A stretch of 64,000 nt of DNA from an uncultured Clostridia bacterium (GTDB lineage Bacteria > Bacillota > Clostridia > Oscillospirales > Ruminococcaceae): the NCBI GenBank assembly GCA_947627465.1, contig CANQWD010000002.1, forward strand, positions 1 through 64,000. Direction: 5' to 3'. Under the pieces are notes generated by a model. That model made no database searches. It saw nothing but the letters and a program-made list of their open reading frames with translations, and had not been told where the DNA came from. This document shows, in pieces, positions 25,794 to 29,260 of this stretch; within the stretch, counting starts at the first letter, position 1; each line of letters begins with the position of its first letter. The position numbers and the translations under genes are program-made.

Positions 25794-25925
25794 AAGGATA
25801 ATTTATTTCCCCCTATTGCCGTGAAGCCGAAGATGCGTCGGTCACGGCAGATTGCTTAATGCAGTTCAAAAAATTTTTCCTCCATATTATTTTGCGCCCC
25901 ATGCATCGGGGCGCGTTTTTTTTAT
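25794..25925 (+). ncRNA. Candidate small RNA of about 130 nt
   Basis: The stretch from the promoter to the terminator has a perfect 8-bp stem, TGCCGTGA/TCACGGCA (about 25818-25848), with an inner CCGA/TCGG pair, a U-rich single-stranded part with CCTCC near 25880, and the terminator. CCTCC could pair with ribosome-binding sites, a property of regulatory RNAs; this is inference. No known family was recognised. Confidence 0.45.
25894..25925 (+). terminator. Intrinsic terminator
   Basis: GCGCCCC (25894-25900) pairs with GGGGCGC (25908-25914), followed by a run of nine or so T residues. Confidence 0.9.
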
Positions 25926-25943
25926 AAAATTTAATAAAATGCC

Positions 25944-25972
25944 TTGACAAAACCCGTAATTTGATGTACAAT
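25944..25972 (+). promoter_or_regulatory. Promoter with long leader before comFB
   Basis: TTGACA (25944-25949), 17 bp, TACAAT (25967-25972). The ~200-nt leader before the ATG at 26180 can fold: AAGCTTTTC/GAAAAGCCT (about 26057-26102) and GCGTTAAA/TTTAACGC (about 26112-26129). No known riboswitch consensus was recognised. Confidence 0.75.
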
Positions 25973-26179
25973 ATAATTATAGCAGTCAACACAATTTAAA
26001 CATCGCTTAAGCGGCAGCGCCGCATAACCTTGATAAAAGTTATTTTAAAAATGCACAAGCTTTTCGTAGATTGCTATGATACATCATGTTGTGAAAAGCC
26101 TGTTTTAGTGCGTTAAATTTTTAACGCGGTCTGTAATATATCTGAGGTGAAAACGGCTTGTGCTGGGGAAGGACACATT

Positions 26180-26467
26180 ATGGCTCTTGTAAATGTTATG
26201 GAAAAGATCGTTGACGAAAAGTTGGAGTATATGCTAAAAGAAGAGGATTGCTGCAAGTGCGAACGATGCCTTGAAGATATGAAAGCCATTGCTCTTAATC
26301 AGCTGCCGTCAAAGTACGTAAGCACTCATAACGGCGAACTTTTTTCAAAGCTGAGCGCGCTTATGCGGCAAAATTCCATTGATATCAACGTGGCGGTATC
26401 TTACGCAATAAAAATGGTGTCCGAACGTCCGTCTCACCCGTATGATCAAAAAAACGAGGCTCAATAA
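26180..26467 (+). CDS. comFB: ComFB family protein (putative cyclic-dinucleotide receptor)
   Basis: 95 aa from ATG at 26180, with GGAAGGA before it. ComFB motifs: MALVNVMEKIVDEKL, the Cys cluster DCCKCERCLEDMKAIALNQLP in parts, KYVSTHNGELFSKL and NSIDINVAVSYAIKMV. Bacillus ComFB is a zinc-containing competence-operon protein, and recent work reports ComFB proteins as c-di-GMP/c-di-AMP receptors (named from memory). It stands alone here, without comF genes, but near an HD-GYP regulator, which fits a signalling role. Confidence 0.88.
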   Translation: MALVNVMEKIVDEKLEYMLKEEDCCKCERCLEDMKAIALNQLPSKYVSTHNGELFSKLSALMRQNSIDINVAVSYAIKMVSERPSHPYDQKNEAQ

Positions 26468-26524
26468 CTCAATAAATTGAACCGCTCGAAGCAGCTGTGC
26501 GGCTGATGTATAACGCGTAAACTT

Positions 26525-26553
26525 CCCCGCTTAAAAACAGGCGGGGTTTATTT
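26525..26553 (+). terminator. Terminator of comFB
   Basis: CCCCGC (26525-26530) pairs with GCGGGG (26541-26546), followed by TTTATTTA. Confidence 0.8.
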
Positions 26554-26645
26554 ATGCGTTTCAATGTCGCTTTACAGACTGTCGAGAAGCCCTCAGATGC
26601 CGGACAAAACGTTGACGACGCAGATGAGGTTTTATCGACAGGCTG

Positions 26646-26674
26646 AAACCCCGCGCAACAGTTGCGCGGGGTTT
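26646..26674. terminator. Strong palindromic hairpin, possibly a bidirectional terminator
   Basis: AAACCCCGCGCAAC (26646-26659) and GTTGCGCGGGGTTT (26661-26674) are perfect 14-bp arms around one base. Plus-strand continuation is AATATA. It lies where the minus-strand large RNA should end. The 26555-26645 stretch between the two hairpins holds no gene. Confidence 0.65.
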
Positions 26675-26689
26675 AATATATTCGATTTT

Positions 26690-27321
26690 AAAAAGTCGGT
26701 ATTACATTGGACCGTGCTCCTTGTTAAAATTTGTATTTAAAGCAAATTTCATCGGACATCGGACTGTACCTCCCACTAGAATTTTTCATCCCTAAGGTTT
26801 AACTCGCACATTGCAACCACCCTTTTTCATAATGGCTTATCTATGTAAACGCGTTAAAGCGGAAAAATACCTGCGAAATCAACGAAACCGAGCGGTTTAA
26901 TAACGGTATAAGCACCGAGCATTGACGGATTTTGCACTTTGGAAAGCTCATCAACTTTCGTGCAAATCATCGCCTAAAAGGTTCACCTCACGGTTGAGCG
27001 TCGGGCGATTCCGCAGAAAGTAAGTAGGAAGGTTCTTCAATTCCCATCGGGATTCGCCTGCCTTTCTGTTGGAATGATCCTTCGTTTTCGGTTAACGACC
27101 CATTGGACTAAACTCCTTTTCCGCAACATACACTTCACACTCTTAAAGATGAAGTGTTCTCGCATATTTAAAAGCTCACCTTTCCATTGGACCTTTCTCC
27201 TCTCGAAGATTTGGAAAGCACCCGTACCGACCTCTCGGCTTGACTTCGGGTCTTTAATACCGTTGCAAACCTGTTCGAAATGAGACTTTCGGTGGTTTGG
27301 TTCCGGCGACTTTCTTTCCTT
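26690..27321 (-). ncRNA. Candidate large structured RNA of about 630 nt
   Basis: A consensus minus-strand promoter (27356-27328) drives a region with no credible protein gene. The RNA can form many stems: ACACTTC/GAAGTGT (27130-27157), TTTGCAC/GTGCAAA (26931-26966, with an inner CTTT/AAAG stem), GACC/GGTC near 27229-27252, and a weak ACCG/CGGT hairpin followed by five U at the 3' end (about 26690). A 16-nt motif, GGAG-N3/4-RGTCCRATG, occurs four times (27202-27185, 27116-27101, 26774-26758, 26720-26705). It is not RNase P, tmRNA or SRP RNA by the motifs I know. Size and context fit the ROOL/OLE/GOLLD class of large bacterial RNAs, but membership is unproven. Confidence 0.55.
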
Positions 27322-27327
27322 GAATAT

Positions 27328-27356
27328 ATAATAACACATTTGTTCGTCAAAGTCAA
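27328..27356 (-). promoter_or_regulatory. Promoter of the large RNA
   Basis: On the minus strand TTGACT (27356-27351), 17 bp, TATTAT (27333-27328), so transcription should start near 27321. Confidence 0.75.
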
Positions 27357-27473
27357 TAGATTTTTTAATTTTTTTCTTAGCTTTTTTGTATATATTTTAC
27401 GCTTCCGTTTTAGGCAAAGTAACGATAATCCGTGTAACATACGATTACATTTTAAATTTCCGAAAAATCCCCC

Positions 27474-27502
27474 TTGACAACACGCTTGAAATAGTGTAAA
27501 AT
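27474..27502 (+). promoter_or_regulatory. Promoter of the DUF1292 gene
   Basis: TTGACA (27474-27479), 17 bp, TAAAAT (27497-27502), 64 bp before the ATG. It diverges from the large-RNA promoter. Confidence 0.8.
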
Positions 27503-27565
27503 ATATTCAAGCATGGTTTTGTACGCAATTGAAAAACACAGTTCTTAAAAATTTAAGGAGATAAT

Positions 27566-27910
27566 ATGAGCGAAAACGAAAACACATATTTGGACGAGGA
27601 CGAGGGCATAATAGAACTTGAGGACGAAGAAGGCAACGTAACGCGCTTCGAGTTTGTAGACCGCGCCGAAATGGACGGTACTGTTTATTACGCGCTCATT
27701 CCGGAAGAATACGACGAAAACGATGAATCGGCTGCCGAGTTCGTAGTGCTGAAAGAGCAGGAAGTAAACGGAGAAGCAATGCTTGCGACGGTCGATGACG
27801 ACGATGAGTATCAAAGAGTCGGCGAAATGTTTTTGCAGCGTTTTTCCGAGCTGCCCGATCTGGACTTTTCCGAACTTGCAGAGTTGGACGGCTTGGACGG
27901 CGAAGAATAA
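27566..27910 (+). CDS. DUF1292 family protein (YrzB-like)
   Basis: 114 aa, strongly acidic. GIIELEDEEGNVTRFEFVDRAE, quoted here as GIIELEDEEG then RFEFVDRAE, followed by VYYALIPEE and EFVVLKEQE, is the DUF1292 beta pattern; the tail (about 85-114) is an acidic Leu/Asp extension. Ribosome site AAGGAG. The family is widespread in Firmicutes, often by the alaS-yrrK genes, and has no known function. Here it stands alone. Confidence 0.9.
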   Translation: MSENENTYLDEDEGIIELEDEEGNVTRFEFVDRAEMDGTVYYALIPEEYDENDESAAEFVVLKEQEVNGEAMLATVDDDDEYQRVGEMFLQRFSELPDLDFSELAELDGLDGEE

Positions 27911-27969
27911 ACAACGCAAAACGGACGATCAGATCGTTATTTTATCAAATGGTTCAATATCTTACTGCC

Positions 27970-27997
27970 TTGCCGGTGTACGTGCGCGGTTTATGAT
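27970..27997 (+). promoter_or_regulatory. Possible promoter of the 6S-like RNA
   Basis: TTGCCG (27970-27975), 16 bp, TATGAT (27992-27997). Confidence 0.45.
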
Positions 27998-28003
27998 CCG
28001 AAC

Positions 28004-28190
28004 ACTTATTAAAAGGGATCTCGACTCCGGCGGCGGATTGCAGACCTCCCGTAAACTCAGGTTTACGGTCGGCGGGAGCGTGAAACCGTTGGGCGACCTT
28101 ACCCACCCTGCCATTAGCGGGTTTTATAATGCGCCCTACTGCAAGGCGGTAATTTTTTGAAAATCAACGGGAGTTTGCGCTCCCGTTTTT
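28004..28190 (+). ncRNA. Structured small RNA, possible 6S RNA
   Basis: About 190 nt from the promoter to a terminator with no ORF. TTGCAG (about 28038) can pair with CTGCAA (about 28138). Between them stand two hairpins, CTCCCG...CGGGAG with inner GTAAAC/GTTTAC (about 28046-28079) and GGGCG...CGCCC with inner ACCC/GGGT (about 28093-28135). ACTCC at 28025 can pair with GGGAGT at 28169. The long interrupted rod and length suit 6S RNA, which binds RNA polymerase; a three-way-junction riboswitch for the next gene is the alternative. Confidence 0.5.
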
Positions 28191-28191
28191 G
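28166..28191 (+). terminator. Intrinsic terminator of the small RNA
   Basis: AACGGGAG (28166-28173) pairs with CTCCCGTT (28180-28187), followed by TTTTGTTT. Confidence 0.85.
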
Positions 28192-28393
28192 TTTCTTCGC
28201 AAACGTTCTTGATATGTGTAATAAATGCGGCAAAATATCGGTGGAAATTACCGAAAAATATATAAAATGTTACAAAAATTCAAATTACCCCTTTATTTTT
28301 TTGTTGGAATATGATATAATATATTATTGTAATAAAGTCCGCGGCTAATCCAACCGCAAAAAGCCGCGGGAGAACGGAAATGAGGTGCGGCAT

Positions 28394-29260
28394 TTGGCTT
28401 TTTGTGATTTGAGACCTGTGTGCGCCGCCGATGATGAAAAAGGAAGTTCCTACATAATCGGCAGTGTTTTCGCAGTATACGAAATAGGAGCGGATCAACC
28501 GTCAGTATACAGCTGGGACATGATAAAAAGCGTTACGGTGACAAGAAAAGATATCACCGTACAGACCGTGGGCAAATGCCACACGATAACCAACAAAATG
28601 TTCTCGGGCGAGGAGGATATTTTAAGAGCCATCGCCATTATCGAGTGCAGGCAAAAGGAATACCGCTTCGGATATGCACACGACAGACGGCTTTTTCCGC
28701 TGAAATCCTCTTATATTGAAATGTCGCCCGGCAAGGAGACCTATATCGGCGAGGATATCCTGGACGAGGGAGATACCGCCGCGGCGTTCATAATGCTTTT
28801 GAATTTCAAGCTGGTAAAGATCTTATGGCTTGTAGGTCTGATGATAGCCTTGGTGGTATTCGGAGTTTTACATTTTACGATAGGAGTTACGCGCTCTAAC
28901 GTTCTGTATTTCATTCCGATATCAGCGGCTGCGGGCGCGATAACCGCGCTTATCGTGTATCTGATAACTCACGCCGTTGCGAGAGGACGTTTCAAAAAAA
29001 TAGCCGACGCCGACCTCGCCGCTCGGCAAAATATTACATTCGTGATAAGCAGAAAAGGCTTCGCGGCATGCGAGAGCTGCGTATACGAAAGCCGCGATCT
29101 TATTCCGTGGGAGGAAATGGACTACTTTATCGAGTCGGATAAGATGTTCATTCTTTATAAGAATAACGTTCCCGCCGCATATATCCCCAAAAGAGCTTTC
29201 GATAAAAAACACATAGGCGGAATAGCGGATATAATAGCGCTGAGCTTGGAGCAGCGGTGA
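28394..29260 (+). CDS. Membrane protein with YcxB-like domain
   Basis: 288 aa from a TTG at 28394, chosen because GAGGTG lies 6 bp upstream; a GTG at 28385 would overlap that site. The N-terminal part is a PH-like beta domain (VYSWDMIKSVTVTRKDITV in parts), two membrane spans follow (about 142-165 and 172-195), then a YcxB-like C-terminal domain with FVISRKGFAACES, IPWEEMDYFIES and MFILYKNNVPAAYIPKRAF. The family is found in Firmicutes membranes and has no defined function. Confidence 0.75.
   Translation: MAFCDLRPVCAADDEKGSSYIIGSVFAVYEIGADQPSVYSWDMIKSVTVTRKDITVQTVGKCHTITNKMFSGEEDILRAIAIIECRQKEYRFGYAHDRRLFPLKSSYIEMSPGKETYIGEDILDEGDTAAAFIMLLNFKLVKILWLVGLMIALVVFGVLHFTIGVTRSNVLYFIPISAAAGAITALIVYLITHAVARGRFKKIADADLAARQNITFVISRKGFAACESCVYESRDLIPWEEMDYFIESDKMFILYKNNVPAAYIPKRAFDKKHIGGIADIIALSLEQR

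Follow-up and report, generated by a model that had tools for sequence, protein, structure and literature searches.

Within the window (the 64,000-nucleotide stretch of DNA analysed here), the minus strand between the gene for ComFB and a plus-strand DUF1292 gene (27566-27910) carries a predicted transcription unit of about 680 nt (26640-27323), its start and end placed from a promoter and a hairpin. Comparison with homologues supports a conserved minus-strand unit that has its own promoter. The TTGACT-17-TATTAT promoter described in the initial annotation is present at 27356-27328 on the minus strand, with a TG before the -10 and 10/12 matches, and the whole element (27325-27358, minus strand; -35 TTGACT, 17-nt spacer, extended -10 TATTAT) is kept in the homologue rows. 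A promoter scan gave 6 promoter-like sites in 1301 bases, compared with 2.6 in shuffled sequences. An upstream A/T-rich box, AAATATATACAAAA (27384-27397, minus strand), is also kept in homologues, and this is its sole match in the window at one mismatch or fewer.

On the minus strand, the 5' part of the unit contains a 60-nt extra region (27251-27310) between the RNA 5' end and a 5' hairpin, CCCGAAGUCAAGCCGAGAGGUCGGUACGGG (27221-27250). The extra region occurs in the window and in locus L041, is missing from the other 19 aligned homologue rows and from L037, and the 5' hairpin is missing or altered in some homologues. A conserved block, GCGUUUACAUAGAUAAG, lies at 26836-26852 and a 3' element, AAUCGAAUAUAUU, at 26675-26687, where most homologues read AAUUGAAUA. 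The unit ends in a GC-rich hairpin (26646-26674) that is probably its terminator; its T-tract is weak in the window and longer in several homologues, and the minus-strand output of a terminator scan does not include the hairpin. A 3' end had been proposed at 26690, and a position near 26645, after the GC hairpin, is more likely. The homologues have in common the promoter, the upstream A/T-rich box, much of the body and the 3' hairpin. From promoter to last open reading frame (ORF), the unit measures 720, 731 and 894 nt in L011, L012 and L020, compared with 553-652 nt in the other aligned rows; in these three loci the 5' hairpin is separated from the first mini-ORF by a GC-rich insert.

We found no Rfam family in the RNA. 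The whole window gave 0 matches at the gathering score, and a search up to E 10 across 25900-28400 returned no ROOL, OLE, GOLLD, HEARO, tmRNA, SRP or RNase P. The misfit to RNase P, tmRNA and SRP that had been claimed from signature sequences is borne out by this lack of a covariance-model match, and membership of ROOL, OLE or GOLLD, suggested on grounds of size, found no Rfam match; the HEARO search was likewise empty. The only 6S match was to a plus-strand neighbour at 27959-28156, not to the RNA itself. Weak matches to Leu_leader, trpB and isrJ at permissive scores were centred on the terminator hairpin and were rejected. RNase P RNA was considered because GGAGAAAGUCC resembles what we take to be a conserved stretch of that RNA, and was set aside, as an ordinary copy (265 bits) lies elsewhere in the genome. 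The further suggestion of a new class fits these results; no Rfam family covers the RNA or its scanned homologues.

Two overlapping minus-strand ORFs of 100 and 90 aa begin at 27339 and 27440; they do not fit as genes because they start upstream of the start expected from the promoter. No ordinary gene fits the unit, in agreement with the earlier view that it holds no credible gene, but that view overlooked several very short ORFs in a row that have Shine-Dalgarno sequences. All lie on the minus strand and are given here with their start sites: mini-ORF A, AGGAGAAAGGUCCA-AUG GAA AGG UGA (27176-27201; MER); mini-ORF B, AAGGAGUUUAGUCCA-AUG GGU CGU UAA (27092-27118; MGR); ORF C, MGIEEPSYLLSAESPDAQP and a stop (26988-27065; 19 aa); ORF E, MCELNLRDEKF and a stop (26776-26825); ORF F, GGGAGGUACAGUCCG-AUG, MSDEICFKYKF and a stop (26724-26774; 11 aa); and mini-ORF G, AAGGAGCACGGUCCA-AUG UAA (26702-26722), a start followed directly by a stop. 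In many of the blocks conserved among homologues, read from the alignments, a Shine-Dalgarno sequence is followed after a few bases by UCC, a purine and AUG. Five of the six ORFs in the window have this SD-N-UCC-R-AUG grammar, the start context of ORF E deviating from UCCRAUG, and other carriers have 2 to about 7 ORFs. With a Shine-Dalgarno sequence, an AUG, very few sense codons and a stop, these predicted modules have the make-up by which a minigene is recognised.

The array is a regular feature of the window's genus. By BLAST it was found in 20/61 genomes, all among the 37 from that genus (the window's own included), and in 0/24 genomes from other families. A covariance model covering 176 positions at the 3' end, built from 20 sequences with L013 and L017 left out, matched once in each of 41/43 genus genomes and in all 27 genus genomes of at least 90% completeness and at most 5% contamination. 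When 394 genomes sampled evenly from the order were searched, the model matched four: three of the genus, and a weak one in genome G339, from another family, whose locus showed the same array design on reading. Neither BLAST of phage and plasmid collections nor one pattern run on viral contigs gave a match. A mobile-element RNA was rejected on the lack of a phage or plasmid BLAST match and the single match per genus genome. A pattern scan of named genomes returned 19 stretches, all in metagenome-assembled genomes with names such as Oscillospiraceae or Ruminococcaceae bacterium; some come from animal-gut metagenome assemblies. Three of the 19 were read (L031, L037, L041), and L031, at a recombinase-like gene, looks like chance. 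Composition varies within the genus. By eye, the divergent loci L087-L089 and L091 read MN, MHL, a GUG-started ORF C, MET, and MN or MNQ, and L072, L073, L075, L076 and L077 lack mini-ORFs A and B in the start grammar, retaining only C, F and G plus chance-looking extras.

Further carriers lie outside the genus. In the clade labels of this analysis (f for families, g for genera, g1 being the window's genus; many of the genomes are fragmentary), the array design was read in five other genera: g26, g27 and g28 of the same family, and g98 and g70 of family f24. Judged by sequence, the carriers belong to at least six genera of two families. BLAST around G339 matched 18/60 genomes, each of them belonging to the 37 from genus g98; 17 of the 18 g98 loci have a 15-17-aa ORF followed by short ORFs (ME, MG, MH or MQ, and MY, MYS, MYR or MYK), and L152 has none. 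Genomes G120 and G333 (g70) have an 18-aa ORF plus MY. Arrays in g28, g98 and g70 consist of two to four modules only, and inter-ORF sequence differs greatly between genera. In L160 (G471), a cassette of MK and MI occurs twice in tandem within the array, which suggests that arrays grow by module duplication. In the g26 loci L128, L133 and L136 the start motif is also repeated with GCC or ACC at the place of the AUG (for example GUGAGUCCGCCUAAC and GUGAGUCCACCGGUUAC); for the copy that precedes the last ORF, the reading covers L128 and L133 alone.

Pattern searches reached a few more genomes. The start-site pattern of ORF C matched 20/394 genomes of the order and none in the reversed control, giving 26 loci, of which 19 were read and the other seven lie in genomes with an array already read. 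Among these loci, L174 (g70) and L183-L186 (g28) are arrays, L173, L181, L192 and L193 open a longer ORF, and L180 has a single 8-codon ORF. The loci of genus g20 (family f20), except L193, have leader ORFs of 7 or 12 codons in the same start context. This short f20 ORF begins MAH, has the start AAGGAGGGGAGUCCRAUG and occurs in one to three copies per genome; it has 7 codons in L177, L178, L179 and L194-L198 and 12 in L176, and lies near base 1514 of the strand read. In the four loci read further (L177, L195, L196 and L198) the gene that comes next apparently encodes a secreted or membrane protein. A class-wide pattern matched 6/371 genomes, its reversed control matching two others; four of the six loci were read and only that of G120 is an array. 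Run order-wide, a pattern for the 3' end found 10/394 genomes, two of them of the genus; the loci of G339 and G387 are arrays, the scanned loci of G103, G287, G430 and G057 contained none, and the other two genomes (G145 and G185) fell outside the scanned loci. The class-wide and order-wide counts are lower bounds, because both patterns missed known carriers.

We examined how soon the modules stop. The pattern [AG]GG..[TA][CT]C[ACG][AG]TG was applied 3' of a promoter-like site, ORF length was left free, and a locus counted if it had three modules or more. This yielded 173 distinct modules from 47 of 70 loci: 116 in g1 (30/41 loci, the extracted genus arrays), 11 in g26 (3/3), 10 in g27 (3/5), 36 in g98 (11/18) and none in g28 (0/3). 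All 173 close within 23 codons, start included, and 99 (57%) span at most three; in a first-order Markov control from g1 RNAs, 15% close within 3 codons and 73% within 23. Frames +1 and +2 of the same modules stop within 3 codons in 33 and 35 cases and run beyond 23 codons in 39 and 25. Median codon numbers for frames 0, +1 and +2 are 3, 15 and 7 in g1; 2, 5 and 14 in g26; 2, 0 and 11.5 in g27; and 3, 3 and 7 in g98. Within g1, 66, 30 and 50 of the 116 modules close within 5 codons in the three frames. By median the frame control is clear in g1 but not elsewhere, frame +1 being equal in g98 and lower in g27. Because the other frames also stop early, stop-rich sequence explains part of the ORF shortness, and because the loci are related, the module counts are not independent trials. 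A looser scan found a few other starts, with frames of 28 to 42 codons, in other contexts in L053, L054 and L056.

Of the window's 44 gene starts, one is preceded by the start context [TA]CCR. GUCCRAUG turns up 8 times in the 64 kb compared with 3.0 expected, and five of these lie within the array RNA, one of them inside ORF F. Shine-Dalgarno strength, with medians of -8.05 (g1), -9.4 (g26), -8.5 (g27) and -7.55 kcal/mol (g98), was not above that of the window's genes (-9.2 kcal/mol), whose starts were taken as the best of several, which favours the genes.

Stops also persist through substitution. The last ORF is AUG-UAA in the extracted g1 loci; by eye, it reads AUG-AAC followed by UAA, UAG or UGA in L087, L088 and L089, AUG-AAC-CAG-UAA in L091 and AUG-UAC-UGA in L081 and L082. 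Where UAU replaces the UAA of ORF F, a UGA comes next in 10/10 distinct but related sequences, giving a 12-aa form, and the start of ORF C has changed from AUG to GUG in L087, L088, L089 and L091. Stop interchange, a stop one codon later and the change from AUG to GUG are independent kinds of evidence. As read from the alignments, a single promoter-driven unit keeps its starts and near, interchangeable stops, and its peptides and last codons change. We conclude that the RNA very probably contains short ORFs in tandem that selection maintains for translation.

Among the 75 modules of two or three codons there are 26 different last sense codons, the commonest being UAC (13/75). This diversity led us to reject tRNA sequestration through one codon, and an attenuator leader peptide was rejected on the varying last codons and on peptides that, by eye, show no run of codons for a single amino acid. 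That the ORFs are made for functional micropeptides, chiefly the 15-20-aa ORF C, would agree with motifs kept within clades: ME..EP..SAES in much of g1 and MDxEPxQT in much of g98 for ORF C, and IC....KF of ORF F in most g1 loci. Of the 32 g1 loci (among 41) that have both anchors, moreover, 30 place the helix block UCUGCGG at 27, 30 or 33 nt from the ORF C start, so that the frame is kept, and two (L069 and L085) break it. Pure occupancy by ribosomes does not need the conserved residues in ORFs C, E and F. Yet over half of the modules are M alone or two to three residues of changing sequence, and the pN/pS of the coding frame does not fall clearly below the values of the other two: it is 0.47 compared with 0.82 and 0.42 for the 11-aa form of ORF F, 0.82 compared with 0.60 and 0.76 for the 12-aa form, and 0.64 compared with 0.83 and 1.0 for g98 ORF C, singling out ORF F in neither form and g98 ORF C only slightly. 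We regard micropeptide function as improbable.

An equally improbable explanation takes GGN-N-UCC-R as a putative protein-binding site, for example for a translational repressor, with the AUG and stop carried along in mimicry of an mRNA target, so that the RNA would act as a protein sponge. It would account for the GG..CC or GGA..UCC before most starts, for the g26 motif copies that lack an AUG, and for the motif heading leader ORFs in f20, where the genes behind them could be targets. Stop codons would not be needed by such a sponge, however, which leaves their nearness and interchange unexplained, and a pattern for the bare start signal, run on 20 genomes, gave two matches, both in arrays and none outside them, although its fixed spacing missed most array modules. 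A sponge for CsrA through repeated GGA was rejected, since genus g27 uses AGGUGAGUCC, without GGA.

We next consider the folding of the RNA. The many strong stems noted initially hold up: the minus strand of 26640-27330 has a predicted fold of -209.8 kcal/mol (z = -3.7), and 0/20 shuffles were as good. Two minus-strand helices were followed across 32 aligned sequences, in columns chosen by hand on the same sequences. The hairpin GAUUUGCAC/GUGCAAAAUC (26928-26968) changes on both sides, with 8 of its 9 pairs double-changed at least once. A long-range helix joins CUGCGGAA (27009-27016), which sits within ORF C, to UUUCGCAG (26871-26878), spanning 26871-27016; this helix (UCUGCGGA/UCCGCAGA) has double changes in only one of its 8 pairs and, because its pairs are mostly invariant, is little evidence by itself. 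Together the two helices have 39 double-changed cells compared with 13.2 in shuffles and 91.2% of cells pairing compared with 85.7% (each reached by 0/500 shuffles), and versions slid along the alignment have 4 to 12 double-changed cells; further pair types were not above shuffles (17 compared with 16.4; 224/500). The 3' third of the genus alignment shows little conserved pairing, with 3 of 20 predicted pairs double-changed and a covariation term of -1 kcal/mol. Covariation among homologues, proposed earlier as a check, is thus found in one hairpin, but not in the near-invariant long-range helix and little in the 3' third. One hairpin covaries, so the RNA counts as structured by the measure of covarying pairs.

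These data bear on what kind of RNA this is. The initial description of a simply non-coding structured RNA does not suit a molecule that conserves best its Shine-Dalgarno sequences, its start codons and the stops close behind them, and whose 3' third shows little conserved pairing. A large ornate RNA of the OLE, ROOL or GOLLD sort, bearing ORFs by chance, would have the right size, a solitary gene, a fold beyond shuffles and a covarying hairpin; the ORF lengths measured against the Markov and frame controls, the weak conserved structure of the 3' third and the lack of an Rfam match for the RNA or its scanned homologues make it very hard to believe. In another reading, which we think rather unlikely, the true function of the RNA lies in its folded parts, and the mini-genes serve to keep ribosomes parked on it: occupancy would keep the RNA unfolded or shielded from nuclease, and a drop in initiation would let the helices form, so that the RNA acts or is destroyed. 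The covarying hairpin and the long-range helix overlapping ORF C coexist with the ORFs as such a sensor or ribosome-protected RNA would have it, and starts and stops stay while most peptides change; protection of a transcript from nuclease by a ribosome bound at a mini-ORF is reported in the sections consulted of PMC8708949. Against the sensor stand the little conserved structure in the 3' third, the site of ORFs E, F and G, and the great variation of the inter-ORF parts among genera.

The genomic setting of the array is conserved on one side. The DUF1292 gene adjoins it in 37 of the 41 homologous genus loci (including L078 and L079, with matches below 40% identity), and from coordinates and strands it lies on the strand opposite to the array, pointing away. 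In the four loci without it (L087, L088, L089 and L091), a tRNA gene lies upstream, seen by eye and, for L089, by Rfam. Adjacency also holds in other genera where examined. At the best 30 DUF1292 matches in the 144 sampled order genomes that carry one, a strict array pattern was found at 9/10 loci of the same family and 0/20 of other families. Beyond DUF1292 in the window lies a 6S RNA gene (27959-28156, plus strand; 42.9 bits, just short of the 46.4 gathering score), and 6S RNA takes this position in genera g1, g26, g27 and g28 of one family. It scores above the gathering score in the g26, g27 and g28 loci and in L105 of g1, and just below in L104 and L106; none was reported in the 12 kb around G339 or in the short loci L050, L084 and L089. 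Comparison of the loci thus establishes linkage to DUF1292 and, in one family, to 6S RNA, alongside at least one covarying hairpin.

On the other side, downstream sequence differs between the array loci read. In the window, ComFB is the next gene past the 3' hairpin and is convergent with the array unit; a leader-type minigene was rejected on this ground and on the ending of the unit in a hairpin. By eye, the gene downstream of the array in L120 and L123 of g27 resembles the ribosome quality-control factor RqcH/NFACT.

Our best explanation of the locus, which we hold tentatively, is a stand-alone RNA gene with a tandem mini-gene array whose output would be ribosome occupancy. The RNA would be produced in quantity; ribosomes would start at each site, terminate almost at once and start again; and occupancy by starting and terminating ribosomes, rather than the peptides, would matter. 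Because no gene follows on the unit in the window, the effect would fall in trans on initiating ribosomes, or on the RNA itself. We lean towards a trans effect on the pool of initiating ribosomes, which is possible though somewhat doubtful, over an effect on the RNA itself, which we think less likely. By analogy, the RNA may be a translation-initiation decoy or buffer, again a possibility to be held with some doubt; as a decoy for initiating ribosomes it would be the translational counterpart of 6S RNA, which acts on RNA polymerase. 6S RNA (RF00013) is itself a stand-alone regulatory RNA as well as a near neighbour, and the decoy logic is borrowed from it: 6S RNA mimics a promoter, the array RNA would mimic start sites, and no covariance-model match links the two.

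Other systems share parts of this design. ROOL, OLE and GOLLD are solitary large RNAs in the length class of the array RNA, which has no match to them in Rfam, and to our knowledge tandem ORFs are not part of these families. Leader minigenes occur as one or two and act in cis on a downstream gene, whereas the array is an independent RNA with several in a row in a shared UCCRAUG context and no main gene at its end. The bar minigenes of phage lambda are further two-codon minigenes. According to the sections consulted of PMC8708949, known minigenes work in cis, shield RNA from nuclease or cause toxicity through peptidyl-tRNA drop-off. Those in the axe-txe and EHEC LEE1 leaders described there resemble the array modules in having a Shine-Dalgarno sequence, an AUG, one or two sense codons and a stop, and they take effect through ribosome engagement rather than their product, as we propose for the array (PMC8708949). 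Like the array, the uORF and sORF candidates reported by Narunsky et al. 2024 (PMC11109978) have conserved start and stop codons in intergenic RNA, the sORFs having a conserved start, stop and coding pattern. Those uORFs precede a main gene, whereas the array has none in the window, and the parts of that paper examined contain no tandem start-stop array (PMC11109978). Nothing like a tandem start-stop RNA was found in Rfam 15 or in searches of an open-licence literature library. The array RNA may be a new class of bacterial RNA, made up of stand-alone tandem start-stop mini-genes that would buffer or report translation capacity by engaging initiating ribosomes; we advance this only as a possibility, and with reserve.

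If this reading is true, it would explain why Shine-Dalgarno sequences, starts and stops are retained in an otherwise non-coding RNA while most of its peptides change. Bacteria would own an RNA dedicated to controlling or sensing the availability of ribosomes by way of many minimal cycles of initiation and termination, and across several genera of one family this ribosomal counterpart of 6S RNA would be encoded near 6S RNA itself.
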